Assembly: GCF_008087625.1 (NCBI RefSeq)
Contig: NZ_CP042997.1
Coordinates: 5,704,001-5,768,000 of the forward strand
Origin: Aquisphaera giovannonii
Lineage (GTDB): Bacteria; Planctomycetota; Planctomycetia; Isosphaerales; Isosphaeraceae
Direction of reading: 5' to 3'
DNA length: 64,000 nucleotides
Of the stretch, positions 31,628-57,509 are shown piece after piece. Numbering within the stretch: the stretch's first letter is position 1; each line of letters opens with the position of its first letter. The notes under the pieces are model-generated. The model searched no databases and was not told where the DNA came from. It was given only the letters and a program-made list of their open reading frames with translations. The translations under genes and the position numbers were made by a program.

Positions 31628-31667
31628 AACGGCCCTCGCGATGCCTTCGGGTGTCTCGAGGGCCGTT
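31628..31667 (+). terminator. Hairpin terminator candidate
   Basis: AACGGCCCTCG (31628-31638) and CGAGGGCCGTT (31657-31667) are perfect 11-bp inverted repeats, 77 bp after the stop of the Cys-rich protein gene. The 3' flank is only weakly T-rich. Confidence 0.6.
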
Positions 31668-31789
31668 TCGCGTTGCGCCCCATCTCCGCCTCCCGACATC
31701 GGCACATCCCTCCCTCGGCGGCCCTGCCCACCCCGGCGCCGCCCGCCCTCCCCGCGGCCTGCCCCGGCCCCTCGCCCGACCCCCCGCGA

Positions 31790-31817
31790 TTGACAGATGG
31801 CGGCGATTGTGGATAAC
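31790..31817 (+). promoter_or_regulatory. Sigma-70-like promoter of the fli operon
   Basis: TTGACA (31790-31795) with a 16-bp spacer and GATAAC (31812-31817) gives a near-consensus promoter about 100 bp before the fliF start. The form points to housekeeping sigma control rather than sigma-28 or sigma-54, unlike most flagellar hierarchies. Confidence 0.6.
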
Positions 31818-31914
31818 TCGTGCGCCGCGGACGGCGCCCGGCGGGATTCCCAGGGAAGGGAACGACGGCCGGCCCGACACTCGGGGCGCGGCGGGGTCGT
31901 CCGGAGGAGGATGG

Positions 31915-33438
31915 ATGCGGAGCTTCACCTGGCTGCCTCTCGGCCCGGTCGCGGACGGATTCCGCCCCTGGCTGGATGCCTATCGCCGGCAGTCGCCGGG
32001 CCGCCGGCGGGCGATCCGCTGGGGCCTCGCGGGGGCGATCCTGGCGGTCGCGGCGGTCGCCGTCGTCGCCACCACGCCCTCCCTGGGCACCCCGGGGACC
32101 TGGTACCTGGGGATGGGCCGGCACTACGCCGCGGACGACCTCAGCAAGGTGGCCCGCGCCTTCGACCGCCAGCGGATCGCGTACCAGGTCGACGATCAGC
32201 GGCGGGTGGCCGTGCCCTGGTCCCAGCGCGAGGCGGCCGAGGCGGCCGCCGCCAAGCTCGAGCTCGGCCCCCGGCTCCCCGGCGAGATCCGGGACGAGGT
32301 CCAGGCCCCGGGCCTCCTCGACTCCCCCTCCGACCGGGAGGCCCGCGAGCATCGCCGGCAGGAGCAGATCCTGGAGTCCCTCCTCGCGAGGGTGCCCGGG
32401 GTGGCGGGGGCCTTCGTCCGGGTCAACCAGCCCCGGCCCCGGCTGGGCCTCCAGCCGGCGGAGCGGCCCTGGGCCTTCGTCAGCCTGGAGACCGAGGGGG
32501 ACCGCCCGCTGCCCTTCCAGTCGGTGCAGCTCATCACCACGGTCGTCAACGGCTTCGACCGGGGCATCGCGCCGGAGTCCATCACCGTGGTGGACCGCCG
32601 CGGCCACAAGTACCTGGACGCCGCCAACCCCTCGCTGGGCGTCCTCTCCCGGAACCTCGCGGAGGAGGAGCGGCTCACCCGCGAGATCGAGGGGGAGCTC
32701 GACTGGATCAGGGGCGTCCGCGTCTCCGTCCAACTCCCCGACGCGCCGGCCGACGAGCCGAGGCCGCCGGCCCCGACCGCGACGGCCGAGGCCGCGAAGG
32801 GCCCGGATGCCGCGGCCCCCGTCATCGCCATCAACCGGCCGCTGGAGATCGCCGAGCCCCCGCCCTCCCCCCCGATCGCGCCCGCCGCCCCCGCCTCGCC
32901 GCCCGCGACGGCCGGCCCTCGACCGGGGCGCGAGCACGGCCGCGTCTGGGTCAAGGTGCCGCGGAGCTATTACTATCAGGTGGGCATGATCCCCGGCCGC
33001 AAGGAGCCCTCCCCGGACGACTTCCAGAAGCTCGTCGCCAAGACGGAGGAGCTCGTCCGCCAGGGCATCGGGGGCGTCGTCCCGCTCGCCGGGCCCTCGG
33101 CCTGGCAGGCGACCGTGAGCGTGATCCCCGACGAGCTCCCCTCGCCGGCCCCGGCCATGCCCGCGTCCGAGACGCGCGGCGTCCCCGCCACCTGGGCCGT
33201 CGCGGCGGGCGTCGCGGGGCTCCTCGCGGCCCTCGCGGCGCTCGCCGCCTGGCTCGTCCGCCTGGGCCTGCGGCCGGCCTCGCGGCGCGAGGCCTCGCCC
33301 CGGGGCGTGCGCTATCACCGGGGCTCGGCCGCCAGCCCCGGGCCGTCCGAGCTCGTCCGCGAGTTCGTCCGGCGCAACCCCGAATCGGCCGTGAGCGTCC
33401 TGGAGCGGTGGACCAGCCAGGGAGGCGAGACCCCATGA
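31915..33438 (+). CDS. fliF: FliF-like MS-ring protein
   Basis: The product is 507 residues. Membrane segments lie at about 35-56 (AIRWGLAGAILAVAAVAVVAT) and 420-447 (TWAVAAGVAGLLAALAALAAW). Between them are ring-building motifs (ADDLSKVARAFDRQRIAYQV, the YscJ/FliF domain; TREIEGELDWIRGVRVSVQL; FDRGIAPESITVVDRRGHKY) and a Pro/Ala-rich stretch. The cytosolic tail ends ELVREFVRRNPESAVSVLER, the usual FliG-binding C-terminus. FliF forms the membrane ring around the export gate. ATG 31915 has GGAGGAGG at 31902-31909. Its stop overlaps the fliG start (ATGA). It is somewhat shorter than classic FliF (about 550). Confidence 0.88.
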   Translation: MRSFTWLPLGPVADGFRPWLDAYRRQSPGRRRAIRWGLAGAILAVAAVAVVATTPSLGTPGTWYLGMGRHYAADDLSKVARAFDRQRIAYQVDDQRRVAVPWSQREAAEAAAAKLELGPRLPGEIRDEVQAPGLLDSPSDREAREHRRQEQILESLLARVPGVAGAFVRVNQPRPRLGLQPAERPWAFVSLETEGDRPLPFQSVQLITTVVNGFDRGIAPESITVVDRRGHKYLDAANPSLGVLSRNLAEEERLTREIEGELDWIRGVRVSVQLPDAPADEPRPPAPTATAEAAKGPDAAAPVIAINRPLEIAEPPPSPPIAPAAPASPPATAGPRPGREHGRVWVKVPRSYYYQVGMIPGRKEPSPDDFQKLVAKTEELVRQGIGGVVPLAGPSAWQATVSVIPDELPSPAPAMPASETRGVPATWAVAAGVAGLLAALAALAAWLVRLGLRPASRREASPRGVRYHRGSAASPGPSELVREFVRRNPESAVSVLERWTSQGGETP

Positions 33439-34016
33439 CGACCCCGACCCCGCGGGCCGCCGCCGATCCGGCCGGCGACGCCTCCGCCCCGCCGCTCGCC
33501 GTCGAGGCGGGGGCCATCCCGCCGCTCCGCAAGGCGGCGATCGTCCTCGTCAGCCTCGAGCAGTCGCTCGCCTCCCAGCTCCTCCAGCACCTCGACCGCG
33601 CCGCGGTGGAGGCGGTCACCTGGGAGATCGCCCGGCTCGAGCGGATCGACCCGGCGGAGCAGGAGGCCGTGCTCGAGGAGTTCCTCGGCCAGGGCCTCCG
33701 TCGCCTCTGCTTCGTCTTCGAGGACCTCCTGCGGATGGACGACCGCGACGTCCGCGGCGCCTACCACGAGGAGGACATCGACGCCTGGGCGCTCGCCCTC
33801 GCCGGCGCGGCCCCGCCGGTCCGCGCCAAGGTCTTCGGCTCGCTCGACCCGGCCTCGGCCGCGTCGCTCCGCGCCCACCTCGAGGGCATGGGCCCGTTCC
33901 GCCTCTCCGACGCCGAGTCCGCCCAGGTCGACCTCGCCGAGCGGTTCCGACGTCTCCACGACCGCGGCGCCGTCCGCCTGCCGGAGCCGAGCGCCCGCGA
34001 CGAGGTCCTCGTCTAG
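33435..34016 (+). CDS. fliG: Reduced FliG: N- and C-domains joined without the middle domain
   Basis: The product is 193 residues against about 330 for ordinary FliG. Residues 30-85 (LRKAAIVLVSLEQSLASQLLQHL...EQEAVLEEFL) match FliG-N, which binds FliF. Then the sequence goes directly to FVFEDLLRMDDRDVRG and the FliG-C helices (LALALAGAAPPVRAKVFGSL...LRAHLEGMGPFRLSDAESAQ). The whole middle domain, which carries the EHPQR FliM-binding site, is absent. Of the charged residues needed for torque in E. coli FliG, only the Arg in GPFRLS is kept; the Lys is Ala, the DD pair is AH and the other Arg is Ser. It overlaps fliF by 4 bp. It probably caps the FliF ring but is unlikely to drive rotation. Confidence 0.85.
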   Translation: MTTPTPRAAADPAGDASAPPLAVEAGAIPPLRKAAIVLVSLEQSLASQLLQHLDRAAVEAVTWEIARLERIDPAEQEAVLEEFLGQGLRRLCFVFEDLLRMDDRDVRGAYHEEDIDAWALALAGAAPPVRAKVFGSLDPASAASLRAHLEGMGPFRLSDAESAQVDLAERFRRLHDRGAVRLPEPSARDEVLV

Positions 34017-34059
34017 CGGGCGGGATCGCCGGCCGACCCCCGGGAGCAGGAGGCTCCTC

Positions 34060-34545
34060 ATGTTCGCGACACCTCGACGCACGATCGCCGCTGCGACCTT
34101 CTCGCTCGCCGCCCTCCTCGCGTCCGCGGCCGGCCCGACGTCCCGGGCCGAGGAAGCCGGCCCGGTCGTCGTGCCGCCCCCCTCGGGGCGCCTGCCGGTC
34201 CTCGGCCTTTCGGGCCCGTCGGCCCCGACGGATCCCGAGGCCGCGCGGCCGTCCGGCGGCGGCTGGTGGCTGGGGACCTCCGGGATCGCGCTGGCCCTCG
34301 CCGCCTGCGGCGCCGCCTCCGTCGCCGCCCGCCGATACCGCCCGCAGGGCTCCTCCGGGATGGTGAACGTCGTCGGCAAGGTGAGCCTCTCGCCCCGGCA
34401 TTCGATCGTCCTCGTCCGCGCCGGGGCCCGCGTCCTCCTCGTCGGCACGGGCCCGCAGGGCGCGCCCTCGCTCCTGGGCGAGCTCGAGGGCGAGGCCCTC
34501 CCCCTCGCCGCGGACGGCACGCCCCGGGCGGGAGGCGAGGCATGA
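34060..34545 (+). CDS. fliO: FliO-like export-gate assembly protein
   Basis: The product is 161 residues. A signal-like N-terminus (FATPRRTIAAATFSLAALLA) and a central membrane helix (about residues 67-90, WWLGTSGIALALAACGAASV) flank a Pro-rich segment. The cytosolic domain has NVVGKVSLSPRHSIVLVRAG, then VLLVGTGPQGAPSLLGELEG, the conserved FliO pattern. FliO is a chaperone for FliP ring assembly. AGGAGG at 34048-34053 supports ATG 34060. It overlaps fliP (ATGA), as in other fliOPQR operons. Confidence 0.8.
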   Translation: MFATPRRTIAAATFSLAALLASAAGPTSRAEEAGPVVVPPPSGRLPVLGLSGPSAPTDPEAARPSGGGWWLGTSGIALALAACGAASVAARRYRPQGSSGMVNVVGKVSLSPRHSIVLVRAGARVLLVGTGPQGAPSLLGELEGEALPLAADGTPRAGGEA

Positions 34546-35486
34546 CCGGACGCGGGCCGACCATCCGCCGCGCCGCCCTCCTCGTGACCCTGGCGGCGCT
34601 GGCATTCCTGGCTGCGGGCGCGAAACCGTGCCCGGCGCAGTTGCTGGCCGATTCCGACGAGCGCCCGTCGATCCCCGGCTTCGAGAGGCCGCGGTTCGAC
34701 GCCGAGGCGCTCAGGGCCGAGGCCGTGACTGTCCACGCGACGCCGCCGGGCCAGGCAGATGCCGCGGCCCCGGGCGAGGAGCCGGCCCCGGCGAAGCCCT
34801 CGCCGCTGCCCGACGCCCGGGACGCCATGCGGACCGCCTCCACGATGGCCCTCTACGGCCTCATGTGGCTGGCGCCGATGGGCGTGCTGATGCTCACGGC
34901 CTTCGTCCGCATCGAGATCGTCCTGGTCCTGCTCCGCCAGGCGATGGGCAGCCCGCAGGTCCCCAGCAACCAGGTGCTCATGGTTCTGGCGCTGCTGCTC
35001 ACGGCGCTCGTGATGCGGCCGGTCGGCGAGCGGGTCTACCAGGACGCGATCGTCCCCTTGCAGGCGGGCAAGGCCGCCCCGGCGGAGGCCTGGGAGGCGG
35101 GCTCAGCGCCCATCAAGGGCTTCATGGTAGACCAGATCGTCCGGACGAAGCACGCGGATTACCTGTGGGCCCTCTATCATCACGCCCGCCCGCCCGGCCC
35201 CGGCCGGGCCGAGCCGAAGTACGGCCACGAGTTCCCGTTCCGGATCGTCGCGCCGGCGTACCTGCTGAGCGAGCTGACCACCGCGCTGGTCATGGGCTTC
35301 TACCTGTACCTGCCGTTCCTGGTCATCGACCTGGCCGTCTCCGCGGTGCTCGCCGCGATGGGGCTCTACATGCTCCCGCCGACGCTCGTGGCCATGCCCG
35401 TGAAGATGATCGTCTTCGTCCTCGCCGACGGCTGGCTGCTCGTCTCGACGATGCTCCTGTCGAGCTTCGCCGGCCCGGGCGGATAG
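34542..35486 (+). CDS. fliP: FliP export-gate protein
   Basis: The product is 314 residues. After a signal peptide (residues 8-32) and a Pro/Ala/Glu-rich insert to about residue 95 come the family blocks: FVRIEIVLVLLRQAMGSPQV, PSNQVLMVLALLLTALVM, HADYLWALYHHARP, YLLSELTTALVMGFYLYLPF, VIDLAVSAVLAAMGLYMLPP and MPVKMIVFVLADGW. Five FliP subunits with FliQ and FliR make the substrate channel. All conserved parts are present, so the gate itself looks functional. The long periplasmic insert makes it larger than E. coli FliP (245). Confidence 0.93.
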   Translation: MTGRGPTIRRAALLVTLAALAFLAAGAKPCPAQLLADSDERPSIPGFERPRFDAEALRAEAVTVHATPPGQADAAAPGEEPAPAKPSPLPDARDAMRTASTMALYGLMWLAPMGVLMLTAFVRIEIVLVLLRQAMGSPQVPSNQVLMVLALLLTALVMRPVGERVYQDAIVPLQAGKAAPAEAWEAGSAPIKGFMVDQIVRTKHADYLWALYHHARPPGPGRAEPKYGHEFPFRIVAPAYLLSELTTALVMGFYLYLPFLVIDLAVSAVLAAMGLYMLPPTLVAMPVKMIVFVLADGWLLVSTMLLSSFAGPGG

Positions 35487-35501
35487 CCGAGGGGGAACAC
35501 C

Positions 35502-35768
35502 GTGGAACTCGATCATGTGATCGACTGGACGCGCGAGGCCCTGCGGATGAGCCTCCTGCTGGGCGGCCCCTTGCTCCTCGCCGCCCTGGCGGTCGGCCTG
35601 GTCGTGAACGTCCTCCAGACGCTCACGCAGCTGCACGAGCCGGTCGTCGGCCTGGTCCCGCGCCTGGCGGCCGTGCTGGTCGTCCTGCTGCTTATCCTGC
35701 CCTGGCTGCTCGGCCGCTGGCTGGGCTTCACGGCGGACCTCATCGGCCGCATCCCGGACCTGCTGTAG
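35502..35768 (+). CDS. fliQ: FliQ export-gate protein
   Basis: The product is 88 residues, the normal FliQ size, with two membrane helices (LRMSLLLGGPLLLAALAVGL and LAAVLVVLLLILPWLLGRWL) joined by the conserved LQTLTQLHEPVVGLVPRL loop. GTG start at 35502 with GAGGGGG upstream, 15 bp after fliP. It surrounds the FliP/FliR core. The next gene, fliR, is separated by a 178-bp inverted-repeat element, which is unusual inside this operon type. Confidence 0.92.
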   Translation: MELDHVIDWTREALRMSLLLGGPLLLAALAVGLVVNVLQTLTQLHEPVVGLVPRLAAVLVVLLLILPWLLGRWLGFTADLIGRIPDLL

Positions 35769-35778
35769 TTGGGACTCA

Positions 35779-35956
35779 CCACAGAGGCACAGAGGACACA
35801 GAGAAGACCGGAAGAGAAGAGAGCTTCTTTTGTAGGGTGCGTCTTGACGCATCGCGACCGCCCCGGCCGACCGGACGAGAGAAGTGCGAAGGGGTAGACC
35901 GCTCCACAAAGTCCTCCTCTCGTCCGGTCTTCTCTGTGTTCTCTGTGCCTCTGTGG
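35779..35956. repeat. Long inverted-repeat element inside the fli operon
   Basis: Arms at 35779-35811 and 35924-35956 are 33 bp each with one mismatch (CCACAGAGGCACAGAGGACA...). The centre has a TAGGGTGCGTCTTGACGCA block. Half-copies of the same element lie between fliR and flhB. The RNA would fold into a stable hairpin within the operon mRNA. Confidence 0.88.
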
Positions 35957-35987
35957 TTCGTACGATCGAAGATGCGAGGAGGATTCG

Positions 35988-36752
35988 CTGGACGCCTTCC
36001 CGCCGGACGCAGCCTGGATTGCCCTGCACGGGCCCGCCTGGATCCTGATCCTGGCGAGGGTCGCCGGCCTCTGCGTCACGGCCCCGCTGACGGCGGTCCC
36101 CGGCGTGGACGTGCGGCTGAAGCTCCTCCTCGCGGCGATGCTCGGCGCGGTGCTGATCCCGGTCCTGGAGCCGACGATCGGCGTGCCGCCGGCCGGGCCG
36201 GCGCTCGCCTGGGCGGCGGTCATGGAGCTGGCGGTCGGGGCCCTGCTGGGCCTCTCCGCGGGGCTGATCGTGGCCGGGGCCCGGCAGGCCGGGGACCTCG
36301 TCGCGGCGCAGGCGGGGCTCTCCGCGGCGACGCTCTTCAACCCGGAGTCGGGCGAGGAGGTCACCGCCCTGGGGCACCTGTACGGCCTCGTTGCGCTGGG
36401 CGTCTTCCTGGCGATGCAGGGGCCGCTCGTCCTGGTCGCCGCGCTCGCGGAGAGCTACCGCGTCGTCCCCGCCGGGGGCTTCCTCCTGGACGCGTCGACC
36501 GCGTCTCAGGTCTTCGCCCAGGTGGGCGGGGCCCTCGCGCTGTCCCTCCGCGCCGCCGCCCCCGTGGCGCTCGCCCTGGCCCTCGCCGGGCTCGCCATGG
36601 GCTGGATCGGCCGCCTCGCCCCCGCGATCCCCGTCCTCGCGATGTCCCTCCCGCTGCGTTCCCTGCTGGGCATCGCCCTGGTCATCCTGGTCCTCGGGGT
36701 GCTCGTCGCCACATTCTCGCAGGCGTGGGCCGCATGGCCGTGGGGAGGATAG
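35988..36752 (+). CDS. fliR: FliR export-gate protein with a probable CTG start
   Basis: The product is 254 residues, the usual FliR length. The next ATG-, GTG- or TTG-type in-frame start is at 36105 and would delete the conserved N-terminus (WIALHGPAWILILARVAGLC, TAPLTAVPGVDVRLK). The frame is open upstream and has GAGGAGG at 35976-35982, placed 5 bp before CTG 35988, giving (M)DAFPPDAAW. Later blocks are AVMELAVGALLGLSAGLIVA, GDLVAAQAGLSAATLFNPES and LMLP-like SLPLRSLLGIALVIL. FliR completes the FliPQR channel. No ATG/GTG/TTG fits, so the rare start codon is inferred and may reduce expression. Confidence 0.82.
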   Translation: MDAFPPDAAWIALHGPAWILILARVAGLCVTAPLTAVPGVDVRLKLLLAAMLGAVLIPVLEPTIGVPPAGPALAWAAVMELAVGALLGLSAGLIVAGARQAGDLVAAQAGLSAATLFNPESGEEVTALGHLYGLVALGVFLAMQGPLVLVAALAESYRVVPAGGFLLDASTASQVFAQVGGALALSLRAAAPVALALALAGLAMGWIGRLAPAIPVLAMSLPLRSLLGIALVILVLGVLVATFSQAWAAWPWGG

Positions 36753-36860
36753 GATGTTCATGATTGACATTAAACAATATTTGGCAATTCTGTTTTCTCT
36801 CTTTCTTTCTCCGGTCATCCTCTCCGGAACTCTCCCGTCCGGAAGGCCGGGGCGGTCGCG

Positions 36861-37027
36861 GTGCGTCAAGACGCACCCTACAAAACAACCCCTCTCCTCT
36901 TCCGGTCTTCTCTGTGTCCTCCGTGCCTCTGTGGTTAGGTGCGTCCGCGCTGCGCTTGACGCACCCTACAGAAGAACCTCCCCCTCTTCTCGGCCTTGTC
37001 TTCTCTGTGTCCTCCGTGCCTCTGTGG
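36861..37027. repeat. Half-copies of the CACAGAGG-type element between fliR and flhB
   Basis: Two direct copies of the arm, CTTCTCTGTGTCCTCCGTGC followed by CTCTGTGG, lie at about 36901-36934 and 36994-37027. They are accompanied by palindromic GTGCGTC/GACGCAC blocks (36861-36876 and about 36939-36964). The sequence matches one arm of the 35779-35956 element. The region also includes an A/T-rich patch (36760-36810) and no gene. Confidence 0.8.
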
Positions 37028-37049
37028 TTAGTCCATTAGGGGTTGCGTG

Positions 37050-38105
37050 ATGTCCGACGAGGATCGCACCCAGCCCGCATCGAAGCGTCGCCTCCAGCTC
37101 GCCCGCGAGCAGGGCCAGGTCGCGCACAGCCCGGAGCTGACGGCCGCGGTCGGGTGGCTCGTCGCCCTGGTCCTGCTGGGCTCCTGGGGCGGGGACCTGA
37201 TCCGCGGCCTGGCGATGCTGACGCGGGCCCCGCTGGAGGCCGTGCCGGTCGCGATCGACGCCGGCCGATTCGTGGCCGACCTCCGCGCCGCGGCCCTGGC
37301 GATCGCGGCGCCCCTCGCGGTCCTCGTGCTGGGCTTCGCGGCGGGCGCCGTCGCGGCCCACCAGGCGCAGGTGCGGGGCCTCTGGGCCCCCTCGCTCCTC
37401 GCCCCGGACGCCTCGCGGCTCTGGTCGGTCGGCCGCGGCGGCGGGCTCGGGGCGGGGCTCGAGCGGATCGCCTGGGCGGCGATCAAGGCGGTCCTCCTCG
37501 TGGTCGTCTCGGCCTGGGCGATCCGGGCGGAGTGGGCCGAGCTGCAACGCCTCGGCCTGCTGGCGCCGGCGGAGCTGGCGTCGGCATCCGGCCGCGTCGT
37601 GGTCTGGCCGCTCGGGGTGCTCGGCGCGGTCATGGTCGCGGTCGGCCTGGCGGACCTGGGCCTCCGCCTCGCCCGGTTCGAGGCGATGCTCCGGACCACG
37701 CCCGACGAGCACCGCGAGGACCAGAAGGCGATGGAGGGCGACCTCTCGCTTCGGGCCAGGCGCCGGCGGCTCGCCCGGGCCTGGCGCGGCGACGCCCCGG
37801 AGCTGCTGGCCGGCGCCACGCTCGTCGTCACCGGCGCCGGCGGCCTGACCGTCGTCATCGGCGGCGGCCCGCCCCCGCGTCGCGTGAACGTCCGCTCCGC
37901 CGCCAAGGGCCCGACCGGCTTCCAGCTCCGCCATTCCAATCGCACCGTCTGGATCCCCGAGATCGAGGCCCCCGCCCTCGCCCTCCGCCTCGGCCCCTAC
38001 GCCGCCAACGCCCCCGGCGCACCCGAGACCCTCCCCGCTGACCTCCTCGCCGCCCTCGCCGCCGCCTGGCCGGCCCCGGCTCCCGGCCCTCGCCGGCCGG
38101 CCTGA
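37050..38105 (+). CDS. flhB: FlhB-like export switch protein lacking the NPTH cleavage site
   Basis: The product is 351 residues. The start KRRLQLAREQGQVAHSPELT is the FlhB signature (SKRRLxxAREQGQVAxSxEL). Four membrane segments follow to about residue 215. The cytosolic linker EHREDQKAMEGDLSLRARRR matches the EhKEE.K..EGDP..K.R.R block. Where every export-competent FlhB has VTNPTHxA, this protein reads LVVTGAGGLTVVIGG. Without Asn-Pro the self-cleavage that switches substrate class cannot occur. The C-terminal tail is poorly conserved and Pro/Ala-rich. Start at ATG 37050 (GTG 37047 also possible) with AGGGG upstream. Confidence 0.85.
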   Translation: MSDEDRTQPASKRRLQLAREQGQVAHSPELTAAVGWLVALVLLGSWGGDLIRGLAMLTRAPLEAVPVAIDAGRFVADLRAAALAIAAPLAVLVLGFAAGAVAAHQAQVRGLWAPSLLAPDASRLWSVGRGGGLGAGLERIAWAAIKAVLLVVVSAWAIRAEWAELQRLGLLAPAELASASGRVVVWPLGVLGAVMVAVGLADLGLRLARFEAMLRTTPDEHREDQKAMEGDLSLRARRRRLARAWRGDAPELLAGATLVVTGAGGLTVVIGGGPPPRRVNVRSAAKGPTGFQLRHSNRTVWIPEIEAPALALRLGPYAANAPGAPETLPADLLAALAAAWPAPAPGPRRPA

Positions 38106-52185: not shown

Positions 52186-52540
52186 GGCCGGCCGTCCCGG
52201 GGGCGGAATCGACGGCGACGGCCCGGGGGCATCTCCCCGGGCCGGCGTCGCGCGCCGGCCGGCGGGGTGGCGTGCCCTCCGGGCGTGGATCCGCAGCCGA
52301 TTGCATGCCATTCGCTCTGGACACGTCCCGACGGGGGCGGTATGGTCCCCGCACACTTCCAGAGCGATGCCGATTCACGGCGACAGGCGGGACAGAGATC
52401 GGGACGGCCTCGGCGCGAGCCGGGGCCGGGGCGACGCTGCCGGTCGGGGCGGGGGCGGAGGGGATCCGTGCGGCCCGCCTCCGGCGCCCGGGCCCCGCGC
52501 CGGTTCGGCATCGTCGGGTCAGGAATCGCGGAGGGGACGG
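52186..52540. other. Leader region before flhA, with a hairpin
   Basis: CGGCCCGGGG (52219-52228) and CCCCGGGCCG (52235-52244) form a perfect hairpin that may end the beta-helix transcript; it has no T-tract. I see no clear promoter for flhA. A GCCGATTC near 52369 is only loosely similar to a sigma-28 -10 box. Confidence 0.45.
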
Positions 52541-54886
52541 ATGCCAGGGACGACATCGAGCCCGCTCGCTTCCGGGTGGCGGCACGCCTCCGGGTTCGTG
52601 ATGCCGATCGTGATCGTCGGCGCCGTCCTCGTGTTCGTGGTGCCGATCCCGCCGGCTCTGCTGGACGTCCTGCTCTCGGCCAACCTGACGCTCGCCGTCG
52701 TGGTCCTGCTGACCACGCTGGCGATCCGGACGCCGCAGGAGTTCAGCGCCTTCCCGACCATCCTGCTGACGACCACGCTGACCCGGCTGGTGCTCAACGT
52801 GGCGACCACCCGGCTCGTCCTGACCGGCGGCGGCACCGAGCTCGGCGTGAACGCGGCCGGCGGCGTGATCCGGTCGTTCGGCGAGTTCGTCGCCGGCGAC
52901 CAGGTGCTCGTCGGCGTGATCCTGTTCTCGATCCTGGTCGTCATCCAGTTCGTCGTGATCACCCGGGGGGCCACGCGGATCAGCGAGGTCGCCGCGCGGT
53001 TCATGCTCGACGGTCTCCCCGGCCGGCAGATGGCCATCGACGCCGACCTGCACGCCGGGCTGATCGACCAGCACCAGGCCCACGAGCGCCGGGACGAGGT
53101 CTACCGCCAGGCGGACTTCTTCGGGGCGATGGACGGGGCGGGCAAGTTCGTCCGCGGCGACGCCATCGCGGGCGTCGCCATCCTGATGGTGAACATCTGC
53201 GGCGGGCTCTTCCTGGGCGTCTTCCAGTACGGGATGAGCGTCTCGGACGCGGTGAACGTCTTCACGAAGCTGACGATCGGCGACGGCCTGGTGAGCCAGG
53301 TGCCGGCGTTCCTGATCTCGCTGGCGGCCGGCCTGATCGTGACGCGGTCGTCGTCCTCGACGGACCTGGGCCGCGACGTGACCGGGCAGCTCTTCGGGGA
53401 CCGCGGCGTGCTGGGCACGGCGGCCGTCTTCCTGGGCCTGCTGGCCTTCACGCCGCTGCCCAAGGCCCCGCTGCTGACGCTCGCCGGGGGCCTCGGCGCC
53501 GGGGCGATCCTGATGGGCCGCCGCGGCGCGTCGGGCGAGGGCGAGGCGGCGGCCGCCGACCACCCGGCCGGGCGTCGCGAGGGCCCCGGCCAGGCCCACG
53601 GCCCGGACCGCCGGGTGGACGCCGGCCACGCCCCGATCGCCGCCCCGAGGCACGCGGCCGAGCCGCCGGCCGCGCCGGCTTCGGGCCCGGGCTCCGAGGG
53701 GATGGAGGACCTGCTGCACGTCGACCCGCTGGAGCTGGAGATCGGCTACCGGCTGATCGGACTGGCCGACCCGACGCGGGGCGGCGACCTTTTGGAGCGG
53801 CTGCGGACGGTCCGCCAGCGGATGGCCCGCGAGCTCGGCCTGATCATCCCGCAGGTCCGGATCCACGACGAGATCGGGCTGACGCCGCACGAGTACCGGG
53901 TGAAGATCCGCGGGGCGATCGCGGGGCAGGGGACGGCGCACGCCGGCCGGCTGCTGGCGGTGCCCCCGGCGGGGCTGGCCGGCCGGCCCGACGGCCGCGA
54001 CGGCATCGACCCGATCACAGGCCAGGCCGCGGTCTGGATCCACGCCGACGGGCGTGAGGTCGCGGAGCTCTCCGGCTGCCGGGTCATGGAGGCCTCGTCG
54101 GTCGTCGCCGGGCACTTCGGCGAGATCATCCGCAACCACGCCGACGAGTTGCTGACCCGCGAGCAGGTGGACCGCCTGCTCGACCGCGTCCGCGCCACGG
54201 CGCCGTCGCTGGTGGCCGAGGTCGTGCCCAGCCTGCTCCGCCCCGGCGAGCTCCAGCGGGTGCTCCAGAACCTGCTCCGCGAGCGCGTGAGCATCCGCGA
54301 CCTGGAGACGATCCTGGAGACCCTGGCCGTGCACGCCGGCCGGACCCGCGACGTGGAGGTGCTCACCGAGCACGCCCGCCAGGGGCTGGCCCGCCAGATC
54401 ACCGAGAGCCACCGCGGCGCCGACGGGCGGCTCCGCGTGGTCACGCTGTCGAAGCCCCTGGACGCCCGGCTCTGCGCGGCCGGCGGCGAGGCCGACACCC
54501 GGCCCTCCGAGGCCCTCGGCGACGAGATGACGCGGAGCGTCGTCCGCGCCGTGGCCGTGGCCGTGGCCACGCTGGTGGACGCCGGGCTGCCGCCGCTGAT
54601 CCTCACCTCCGCCGCGGCCCGCCCCGTGCTCAAGGACCTGACCCGCGCCGACCTGCCGCGGCTCGTCGTCCTGAGCCAGCGGGAGATCCCGCGGGACACG
54701 CCCCTGGAGGTCCTGGGCAGCGTGATCGAGGAGGACGACGCCGACGACGCCGAGGCCGGGGTCGAGCCGGGGCCGGGGCCCCTGGATGCGGACTGGGAGG
54801 GCGCGCCGGAGGCCGGCCGCCGGACGCCGCCGCGGCGGGAGCCGGACATCGTGACCTCGATCACCACCACCGAGGCCCTCGGCTGA
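52541..54886 (+). CDS. flhA: FlhA export-gate protein
   Basis: The product is 781 residues, longer than E. coli FlhA (692). Eight membrane helices occupy residues 20-330, including LLDVLLSANLTLAVVVLLTT and the FHIPEP-type signature FGAMDGAGKFVRGDAIAG. Residues 330-385 are a Pro/Ala/Gly-rich linker. The cytosolic part (LLHVDPLELEIGYRLIGLAD, RRQMARELGLIIPQVRIHDE, ...LLREQVDRLLDRV, LLRERVSIRDLETILETLAV) is complete. FlhA forms the nonameric docking ring for substrates. GGAGG precedes ATG 52541. The position 14.4 kb from flhB and downstream of secreted proteins is unusual but the gene looks intact. Confidence 0.93.
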   Translation: MPGTTSSPLASGWRHASGFVMPIVIVGAVLVFVVPIPPALLDVLLSANLTLAVVVLLTTLAIRTPQEFSAFPTILLTTTLTRLVLNVATTRLVLTGGGTELGVNAAGGVIRSFGEFVAGDQVLVGVILFSILVVIQFVVITRGATRISEVAARFMLDGLPGRQMAIDADLHAGLIDQHQAHERRDEVYRQADFFGAMDGAGKFVRGDAIAGVAILMVNICGGLFLGVFQYGMSVSDAVNVFTKLTIGDGLVSQVPAFLISLAAGLIVTRSSSSTDLGRDVTGQLFGDRGVLGTAAVFLGLLAFTPLPKAPLLTLAGGLGAGAILMGRRGASGEGEAAAADHPAGRREGPGQAHGPDRRVDAGHAPIAAPRHAAEPPAAPASGPGSEGMEDLLHVDPLELEIGYRLIGLADPTRGGDLLERLRTVRQRMARELGLIIPQVRIHDEIGLTPHEYRVKIRGAIAGQGTAHAGRLLAVPPAGLAGRPDGRDGIDPITGQAAVWIHADGREVAELSGCRVMEASSVVAGHFGEIIRNHADELLTREQVDRLLDRVRATAPSLVAEVVPSLLRPGELQRVLQNLLRERVSIRDLETILETLAVHAGRTRDVEVLTEHARQGLARQITESHRGADGRLRVVTLSKPLDARLCAAGGEADTRPSEALGDEMTRSVVRAVAVAVATLVDAGLPPLILTSAAARPVLKDLTRADLPRLVVLSQREIPRDTPLEVLGSVIEEDDADDAEAGVEPGPGPLDADWEGAPEAGRRTPPRREPDIVTSITTTEALG

Positions 54887-54947: not shown

Positions 54948-56102
54948 ATGACGATGGCCGCGAAAACCTACAGGGCCGGGACGATGCGGGAGGCGCTGGC
55001 GAGGGTCCGCAAGGACCTCGGCGGCGACGCGATCATCCTCGCCTCTCGCTCGGTCCGGCGCCGGCGGCTGTTCGGCCTGGGCGGCCGCGAGCTGATCGAG
55101 GTCCGCGCGTCGGCCACCATGCCGCAGGCGGCCGCGCTCGTGGAGGCGGCCGGGGCGCCGCCCCCGCCGGCCTCCGGGGCCGCGGCGGGGCCGGGGGGCC
55201 TCTCCGCCGACGCGCAGGGGCGGCTCGGCGACGAGCTGAGCCGGCTGCACGAGCGCGTGGACGCCCTGAGCCGGATGGGGCGGGTGGACCACCTCGTGCC
55301 CGACCTGCCGGCGCCGGTCGTCGCCTCGTATGCGAGGCTGGTCGAGGCCGAGGTCCCCGAGCCCCTGGCGCGCCGGATCGCGGCGGCCGTCGCGGACTCG
55401 CTGGAGCCGCACCAGCTCCACGACCCGGCGGAGGTCGACGAGGCGCTCCTCGAGGCCGTGGCGCGGTCCATCCCGGTCGCCCCGCCGATCCGCGCCGTCA
55501 TGGGCACGAGGCGGGTGGTGGCGCTCGTCGGGCCGACGGGCGTGGGGAAGACGACGACGGTGGCGAAGCTCGCGGCCAACTTCAAGCTGGTGCACGGCCT
55601 GTCCGTCGGGCTCGTCACGCTGGACACCTACCGGATCGCGGCCGTGGAGCAGCTCCGGACCTACGCCGAGATCATCGACCTGCCGCTGGCCGTGGCGAAC
55701 GACCCCGGGGAGATGGCCCGGGCGCTCGACGAGCTGGGCGCGGTGGACATCGCCTTCATCGACACGGCCGGGCGCAGCCCGCGGGACGAGGTGAAGATCC
55801 GCGAACTGGGCGAGTTCATGGACCGGGCCCGGCCCGACGAGGTCCACCTGGTCCTCAGCGCCGGGGCCGGCGAGAAGACGCTCCGCGCCGCGGCCGAGCG
55901 GTTCGCCCGGGTGCGGGCGGATCGCCTGATCCTCACCAAGCTCGACGAGGCGGAGGGCCTGGGCGATGCGCTCGGCCTGCTCGGCCAGTCGAGCCTGCCG
56001 GTGAGCTACCTGACCACCGGCCAGGCGGTCCCCGACGACATCGAGCCGGCCGACCGCCGGCGGCTCGCGGGCCTGATCCTCGGGATGGAGGCCATCGGAT
56101 GA
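54948..56102 (+). CDS. flhF: FlhF SRP-type GTPase
   Basis: The product is 384 residues. An N-terminal B domain (residues 1-120, TYRAGTMREALARVRKDLGG and DAIILASRSVRRRRLFG) is followed by the NG domain. GTPase motifs are G1 GPTGVGKTTT (about residues 195-204), DTYRIAAVEQLRTYAEIIDL, DTAGRSPRDEVKIREL and TKLDEAEGLG. FlhF places the flagellar base and export gate at the membrane and needs the N-terminal helix of FlhG to trigger GTP hydrolysis. ATG 54948 lies 61 bp after the flhA stop. A 59-residue peptide with the FlhG activator motif follows at 56208. Confidence 0.92.
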   Translation: MTMAAKTYRAGTMREALARVRKDLGGDAIILASRSVRRRRLFGLGGRELIEVRASATMPQAAALVEAAGAPPPPASGAAAGPGGLSADAQGRLGDELSRLHERVDALSRMGRVDHLVPDLPAPVVASYARLVEAEVPEPLARRIAAAVADSLEPHQLHDPAEVDEALLEAVARSIPVAPPIRAVMGTRRVVALVGPTGVGKTTTVAKLAANFKLVHGLSVGLVTLDTYRIAAVEQLRTYAEIIDLPLAVANDPGEMARALDELGAVDIAFIDTAGRSPRDEVKIRELGEFMDRARPDEVHLVLSAGAGEKTLRAAAERFARVRADRLILTKLDEAEGLGDALGLLGQSSLPVSYLTTGQAVPDDIEPADRRRLAGLILGMEAIG

Positions 56103-56207
56103 CGGGGACCGCGACGGGCATGGCGGCCGGCCTGGCGGCGCGACGCGAGCCTCTCGGCGCGGGCGCCGCGGGCGGCCGATCCGACATCCGGCCGGACGGG
56201 AGGCGAG

Positions 56208-56387
56208 ATGCCCGATCAGGCGGATAACCTGCGGCGGCTCGTCCGGGCGCAGCGGCAATGGAAGCGGGCCGACGAGCCGGCGCGGCCCGTCGCGGCGGGG
56301 GAGCCCTCGGGGCGCCCCGGCGCGACGGGCCGGCGCGAGGGATGGCTGGCACGGGCGGCACGCCGGGCCTTCGGGCTCGCCACGTGA
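56208..56387 (+). CDS. 59-residue FlhG-activator-like micropeptide
   Basis: The product is 59 residues. It begins MPDQADNLRRLVRAQRQWKR, which contains DQAxxLR, the conserved motif of the N-terminal helix by which FlhG/YlxH activates the FlhF GTPase. There is no MinD-type ATPase domain. A Gly/Pro/Arg linker leads to a C-terminal basic amphipathic segment GWLARAARRAFGLAT, which resembles the membrane-targeting helix of MinD/FlhG. GGGAGG at 56198-56203 stands four bp before the ATG. It lies 106 bp downstream of flhF, where FlhG would be expected. An overlapping 42-codon frame starting at 56099 is judged a shadow. Inference: a stand-alone FlhF activator stripped of the ATPase. Confidence 0.72.
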   Translation: MPDQADNLRRLVRAQRQWKRADEPARPVAAGEPSGRPGATGRREGWLARAARRAFGLAT

Positions 56388-56732: not shown

Positions 56733-57509
56733 ATGTCAACCAAGGTGGATGTGGATGTGACCGAACTCTGGCGCGAGTTCAAGGAGCACCCCACCACGGA
56801 GATGCGGAACCAGCTCGTCGAGCGGTACCTGCCGCTCGTCAAGTACAACGCCGAGCGCATCTGGCAGCGGCTGCCGGAGGGGGTGGACCTCGATGACCTG
56901 ATCTCCGCCGGCGTCTTCGGGCTGATGGACGCCATCGACGCGTTCGACCTGACCCGCGGCGTCAAGTTCGAGACCTACTGCGTGCCCCGGATCCGGGGCG
57001 CCATGCTCGACGAGCTCCGCACGATGGACTGGGTCCCCCGGCTGGTCCGCTCCAAGGCCAGCAAGATGGAGGAGGCCCGCAAGGAGCTCGAGGCCAGGCA
57101 CGGCCGGCCCCCCACGCCCGCCGAGCTCGCCGAGAAGATGGGCCTGCCCATGGCCGAGTTCGAGAAGCTGGCCATGGACGCCTCCGCCGTCGGCCTCATC
57201 AGCCTCAACAAGAAGTGGTACGAGACCGACGGCTACAAGGACGTCCGCGAGATCGACATCCTCGAGGACAAGAAGGGGGAGGACCCCACCCGACGCCTCC
57301 AGCGCAAGGACCTGATGCGCATGGTGACGAAGGGGCTGAACCGCAACGAACGCCTGATCATCATCCTCTATTATTACGAAGAGCTGACCATGAAGGAGAT
57401 CGGGGCGACGCTCGACCTGAGCGAGTCGCGGGTCTCCCAGATGCACTCGTCGATCATCCAGCGGCTCCAGTCCCAGCTCTCCTCCCGCCGCCCCGAATTC
57501 GGCACCTGA
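56733..57509 (+). CDS. fliA: FliA/WhiG-type sigma factor (sigma-28 family)
   Basis: The product is 258 residues with sigma-70 regions in order: region 2 about 20-95 (NQLVERYLPLVKYNAERIWQ, DLDDLISAGVFGLMDAIDAF, RGVKFETYCVPRIRGAMLDE), region 3 about 100-165 and region 4 about 200-255 (NERLIIILYYYEELTMKEIG, LDLSESRVSQMHSSII). The RGAMLDELR and SRVSQ motifs are those of FliA-type factors that read sigma-28 promoters. No FlgM gene is visible. GGAGG at 56723-56727 supports ATG 56733. It ends the flhA-flhF group, as in many flagellar operons. Confidence 0.93.
   Translation: MSTKVDVDVTELWREFKEHPTTEMRNQLVERYLPLVKYNAERIWQRLPEGVDLDDLISAGVFGLMDAIDAFDLTRGVKFETYCVPRIRGAMLDELRTMDWVPRLVRSKASKMEEARKELEARHGRPPTPAELAEKMGLPMAEFEKLAMDASAVGLISLNKKWYETDGYKDVREIDILEDKKGEDPTRRLQRKDLMRMVTKGLNRNERLIIILYYYEELTMKEIGATLDLSESRVSQMHSSIIQRLQSQLSSRRPEFGT

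Follow-up and report, generated by a model that had tools for sequence, protein, structure and literature searches.

Directly behind flhF in Aquisphaera giovannonii lies a gene of 59 codons which, we propose, encodes the enhancer helix of FlhG as a stand-alone peptide, derived from FlhG and able to activate the FlhF GTPase. On the strength of sequence comparisons, we give this reading a probability of roughly 0.8. The conserved part of the peptide is exactly the element that published work has tied to FlhF: the N-terminal 23-mer of FlhG is helical when bound to FlhF and lies close to the catalytic site (PMC7226244), and a glutamine of that N-terminus is co-catalytic (PMC12826062; PMC12327844). 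It is for this reason that a stand-alone FlhF activator seems to us the best reading. A preliminary description of this DNA had likewise proposed a minimal FlhF activator, an interpretation that our analysis supports, with stimulation of the GTPase drawn from the published work on the helix.

A short gene conserved behind flhF

The window, by which we mean the whole 64,000-nucleotide stretch of DNA analysed here (G000:C1:5704001-5768000), comes from a genome of 10.5 Mb, denoted G000. Four genes follow one another in it on the + strand, in the order flhA, flhF, the short gene (which we call mini-FlhG), and a sigma-28-type gene (Table 1). The short ORF, MPDQADNLRRLVRAQRQWKRADEP...EGWLARAARRAFGLAT, starts 105 nt past the flhF stop, and the sigma gene lies 345 nt further on. 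As the preliminary description had claimed, an ORF carrying DQADNLR directly follows flhF and is free of an ATPase domain. GGGAGG serves as its ribosome-binding site. No Pfam domain was found in the ORF, and no remnant of the ATPase was found between mini ORF and sigma gene, the only weak match being that of the G002 tail to the FlhG C-terminus (E 0.05). A phmmer search of the PDB with the 59-mer returned one chance match, no FlhG peptide and no alignment to 3syn. In the AlphaFold2 model, residues 3-22 form a helix with high confidence (pLDDT about 90); the middle of the peptide is disordered, and residues 43-58 form a weak helix.

Table 1. Features of the window that bear on mini-FlhG and the remaining flagellar genes.
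Feature	Position	Strand	Basis or remark
mini-FlhG ORF, 59 aa, putative stand-alone enhancer helix	56208..56387	+	kept behind flhF in 15 family genomes
GGGAGG, Shine-Dalgarno-like, 4 nt ahead of ATG	56198..56203	+	sequence; similar purine-rich stretches precede other minis
enhancer helix, residues 3-22	56214..56273	+	invariant motif; helix pLDDT about 90; purifying selection across mini genomes
DQADNLR, residues 3-9 of mini-FlhG	56214-56234	+	
basic tail at the C-terminus, possibly left over from the membrane-targeting helix of FlhG	56334..56381	+	helix 43-58 at low pLDDT; constrained in genus; homology only via G002 and G010
flhF, SRP-type GTPase, presumed partner	54948..56102	+	SRP54 GTPase domain; best PDB relatives 8r9r and 2px0/3syn (FlhF)
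flhA, export gate	52301..54886	+	FHIPEP 5e-229; coordinates of the listed ORF, whose real start probably lies further in
sigma-28-type sigma factor (fliA/whiG-like)	56733..57509	+	Sigma70 regions 2, 3 and 4
fliF, short fliG, fliO, fliP, fliQ, fliR, flhB cluster, remaining flagellar core	31651..38105	+	Pfam matches
short FliG, within the cluster	about 33525-34016		FliG_N piece runs straight into FliG_C, the middle domain being small or missing
FliP, within the fliF-flhB cluster	34860-35456		

The preliminary description proposed a search for the same small ORF behind flhF in related genomes, its absence there counting against the reading, and we looked for it in 45 genomes of the Isosphaeraceae, by tblastn with the 59-mer and by a script that reads the DNA behind flhF. 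The tblastn search finds a match behind flhF in G001 (62% identity, E 2.8e-16) and further matches adjoining flhF in G002, G027, G028, G029, G030, G031 and G022. Altogether, an ORF of 59-78 aa beginning M-x-DQAxxLR occupies the slot behind flhF in 15 of the 45 genomes; the D, Q, A, L and R of the motif are invariant in all 15, and the remainder of the ORF diverges. In sister genera the same slot holds a full FlhG of about 270-320 aa (273-318), consisting of MSDQADxLRQLV, a linker and a MinD-like domain, with a C-terminus that is usually such as RRPGFFAALAARWALSRV. One or the other usually fills the slot; in a few genomes, either this kind of flhF is missing or the pair is divergent. Conservation at the same locus across species rules out a chance ORF in GC-rich DNA, and the 59-codon ORF is confirmed as a real, conserved gene.

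The peptide is not conserved uniformly along its length. When mini genomes are compared in five independent pairs, helix codons 2-18 give pS 0.31 and pN 0.07 (Fisher p 1e-5), a pattern of purifying selection at the sequence level, and linkers and tails drift freely across genomes. Within the genus of the window, the closest pair (G000 and G001) has a free linker (pN 0.43, pS 0.25), a constrained tail (pN 0.11, pS 0.40), and too few changes in the helix to show selection.

Two departures from the usual arrangement were observed. A decayed mini ORF, MDDPAESLGRR, lies behind flhF in G032 (L074); its catalytic glutamine is lost, and the adjoining flhF has a shortened linker. At two loci of family f19 (L089 and L090) the sigma gene follows flhF with neither FlhG nor a helix ORF between them, and FlhF there may work without a linked activator. 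FlhF can thus persist without a linked helix, a point that weighs against the activator reading.

Descent from FlhG by loss of the ATPase domain

The best PDB relatives of the family's full proteins are FleN and FlhG (5j1j, 4rz2), and the ancestral gene was therefore FlhG. The preliminary description held that FlhG had been replaced by the peptide. This wording must be revised, since the mini is FlhG itself, cut down: a full FlhG with the same N-terminus fills the slot in sister genera, and mini-FlhG arose from such a protein when the MinD-like ATPase domain was lost and the helix kept.

A full-length FlhG elsewhere in the genome, which the preliminary description had named as a finding that would speak against it, is ruled out by a profile search. 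The full-FlhG profile matches the flhF locus with E below 1e-130 in most full-FlhG genomes, and with 1e-55 to 1e-66 in the divergent G003 and in genus g18; in the mini genomes it returns only generic ParA/MinD matches of 1e-11 to 1e-15, or none. Such generic matches occur in every mini genome except G014, which has none at the threshold used, and one might suppose that another MinD/ParA-type ATPase supplies the ATP-dependent function in trans, the helix peptide being one half of a split system. However, these ATPases are found in full-FlhG genomes as well, none is linked to flagellar genes, and the family's full FlhG already lacks the P-loop lysine, so that ATP gating is perhaps not needed. 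We regard a split system as very unlikely.

The number of times that FlhG was shortened can be judged from a maximum-likelihood tree of FlhF plus the C-terminus of FlhA, on which the full and mini states require 5 changes. The mini groups are g1 with g17, g13, g5, G010 and G014, and the mini-bearing G010 is sister to G025, which has a full FlhG, with support 99/97. An AU test rejects a tree that holds all minis together (p-AU 9e-70); joining g13 to g1 and g17 (p 0.027), or G010 to g5 (p 0.015), is rejected more weakly. A single ancient truncation is ruled out by the tree and the AU test. FlhG thus appears to have been shortened in about five separate events, or in three without the two weaker tests. 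Counts of changes give no direction by themselves; loss is the natural reading because full FlhG is the common state in the class Planctomycetia and beyond. Outside the family, no mini ORF was found in 80 loci sampled from other Planctomycetia, nor, in a wider, non-exhaustive sample of other groups, among the flhF loci whose flhF end was found.

The P-loop suggests how deletion of the domain may have been prepared. In the family's full FlhGs the P-loop reads KGGVGTS, a Thr occupying the position of the lysine. In our survey of the class (L089-L168), that lysine is kept in 28 of the 33 loci of family f2, and most other families of Planctomycetia, flagellin-bearing ones included, have Thr, Ala or Val, or a P-loop that was not found. 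DQAxxLR is kept in most of the families that lost the lysine. From these sequences, we infer that ATP hydrolysis by FlhG was probably weakened or lost ahead of the deletion, although some P-loop variants still bind ATP. At three loci of family f11 (L122, L141 and L145), the FlhG-like protein is reduced to about 190-225 aa and has the helix but no P-loop that can be recognised; these are possible intermediates of the reduction.

The tail bears on the form of the deletion. Against a C-terminal profile of full FlhG, the G010 tail scores 15.9 bits (0 of 200 shuffles) and the G002 tail 5.2 bits (1 of 200), and both tails are consistent with an internal deletion that retained the two ends. The tail of the mini-FlhG in the window has, alone, no recognisable match to the full C-terminus, and in genus g17 the old C-terminus is apparently gone. 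The preliminary description saw in this peptide's tail a basic, amphipathic counterpart of the MinD membrane helix. The tail is indeed basic, and a helix is predicted there at low confidence, but in hydrophobic moment it does not exceed shuffled tails (18% of shuffles reach the same value), and the feature is not general among minis. The idea of a membrane helix thus has partial support only.

A presumed activator in bacteria that probably lack flagella

Described Isosphaeraceae have no motile swarmers and few flagellar assembly genes (PMC5352709). Flagellin is absent from all 45 family genomes in a search whose controls behaved as expected, and it is present in 59 of 109 sampled genomes of the class. 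The rod/hook domain Flg_bbr_C and the C-domain of a FliI-type ATPase were each found in 1 of the 45. The family retains fliF, fliG, fliOPQR, flhAB, flhF and the sigma-28-like gene, with practically no rod or hook proteins; FliP is found in 39 of 45 genomes (26 of 26 good assemblies), FliG_C in 38 and FliM/N in 34. FlhF and the helix therefore persist alongside the MS-ring, parts of the C-ring and the export gate, without an axial structure. Judging by gene content, the Isosphaeraceae probably have no flagellum that would need placing. Since MS-ring, C-ring and export-gate genes are kept, and flagellin, rod, hook and FliI-type ATPase are missing, FlhF probably serves a stripped-down export gate.

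The short gene might also be a non-functional remnant, the last-surviving 5' end of an flhG in decay since the flagellum was lost. The missing flagellin and rod/hook genes, the decayed copy in G032, and the free drift of linkers and tails all fit such a process. Yet motif, start codon and reading frame survive in about five independent lineages over deep divergence, with synonymous changes in excess, and FlhF is strongly conserved too (most of the family shows 57-83% identity, and the GTPase motifs are intact). We consider a remnant very unlikely, and the evidence suggests that the helix can function on its own.

In the mechanism that we propose, the mini peptide would bind the GTP-dependent FlhF homodimer, and its Q4 would act as the catalytic glutamine, speeding GTP hydrolysis and dissociation of the dimer as the FlhG N-terminus does elsewhere. 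With the ATPase domain gone, activation would no longer be gated by ATP or by dimerisation of FlhG on the membrane; its level would depend on how much peptide is present and, in some genera, on the short basic tail. The output would probably be placement or turnover of the residual complex of MS-ring and export gate, because filament, hook and rod genes are absent. Translation of the gene, binding to FlhF, stimulation of the GTPase and the output are all steps that we infer. The peptide might instead bind FlhF to another end, as a stabiliser, tether or dimer inhibitor, or have another partner such as the C-ring, a reading for which the basic tails and linkers leave room. Published work, however, ties precisely the residues that are retained, the catalytic glutamine among them, to stimulation of the GTPase, and we find such another role highly improbable.

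The literature searched, which takes in few subscription journals, contains no report of a natural FlhG without its ATPase, and we regard mini-FlhG as a variant on the known FlhG system with no earlier description found there. The broader proposition has three parts: an SRP-type GTPase is activated solely by a natural peptide made of little besides the helix; such peptides arose about five times through deletion of the ATPase; and, in these flagellum-free bacteria, FlhF acts for a reduced complex of MS-ring and export gate whose function is new. Taken as a whole, this proposition seems to us evenly balanced.

Comparison with known systems

FlhG is viewed as a two-part switch, in which an ATPase counts and places flagella and a helix fires FlhF. 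In the Isosphaeraceae, evolution appears to have separated these two parts, which would make FlhF activation the hard-to-lose part of FlhG and ATP-gated cycling on the membrane the dispensable one. The mini-FlhG/FlhF pair would offer a minimal, genetically simple system for studying how a peptide switches an SRP GTPase. It also draws attention to a complex of flagellar origin that non-swimming bacteria have conserved.

Compared with FlhG/YlxH/FleN, a MinD-type ATPase with an N-terminal enhancer helix, the mini likewise has the DQAxxLR helix and the slot behind flhF, and the C-terminus remains recognisable in the minis of G010 and G002. In contrast to those proteins of about 300 aa, however, it has 59-78 aa and no MinD/ParA-type ATPase domain or P-loop. 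A counterpart in size and motif is the N-terminal 23-residue peptide of Bacillus subtilis FlhG, crystallised with FlhF (PDB 3syn) and, as Bange 2011 is cited in PMC7226244, enough to bind and stimulate it. The likeness is one of motif, and that peptide is a laboratory fragment, whereas the mini is a natural gene. By analogy, without homology, the pair also recalls the action of SRP RNA on Ffh-FtsY, where a small trans-acting element likewise completes the active site of an SRP GTPase, an RNA in that case and a peptide in this one.
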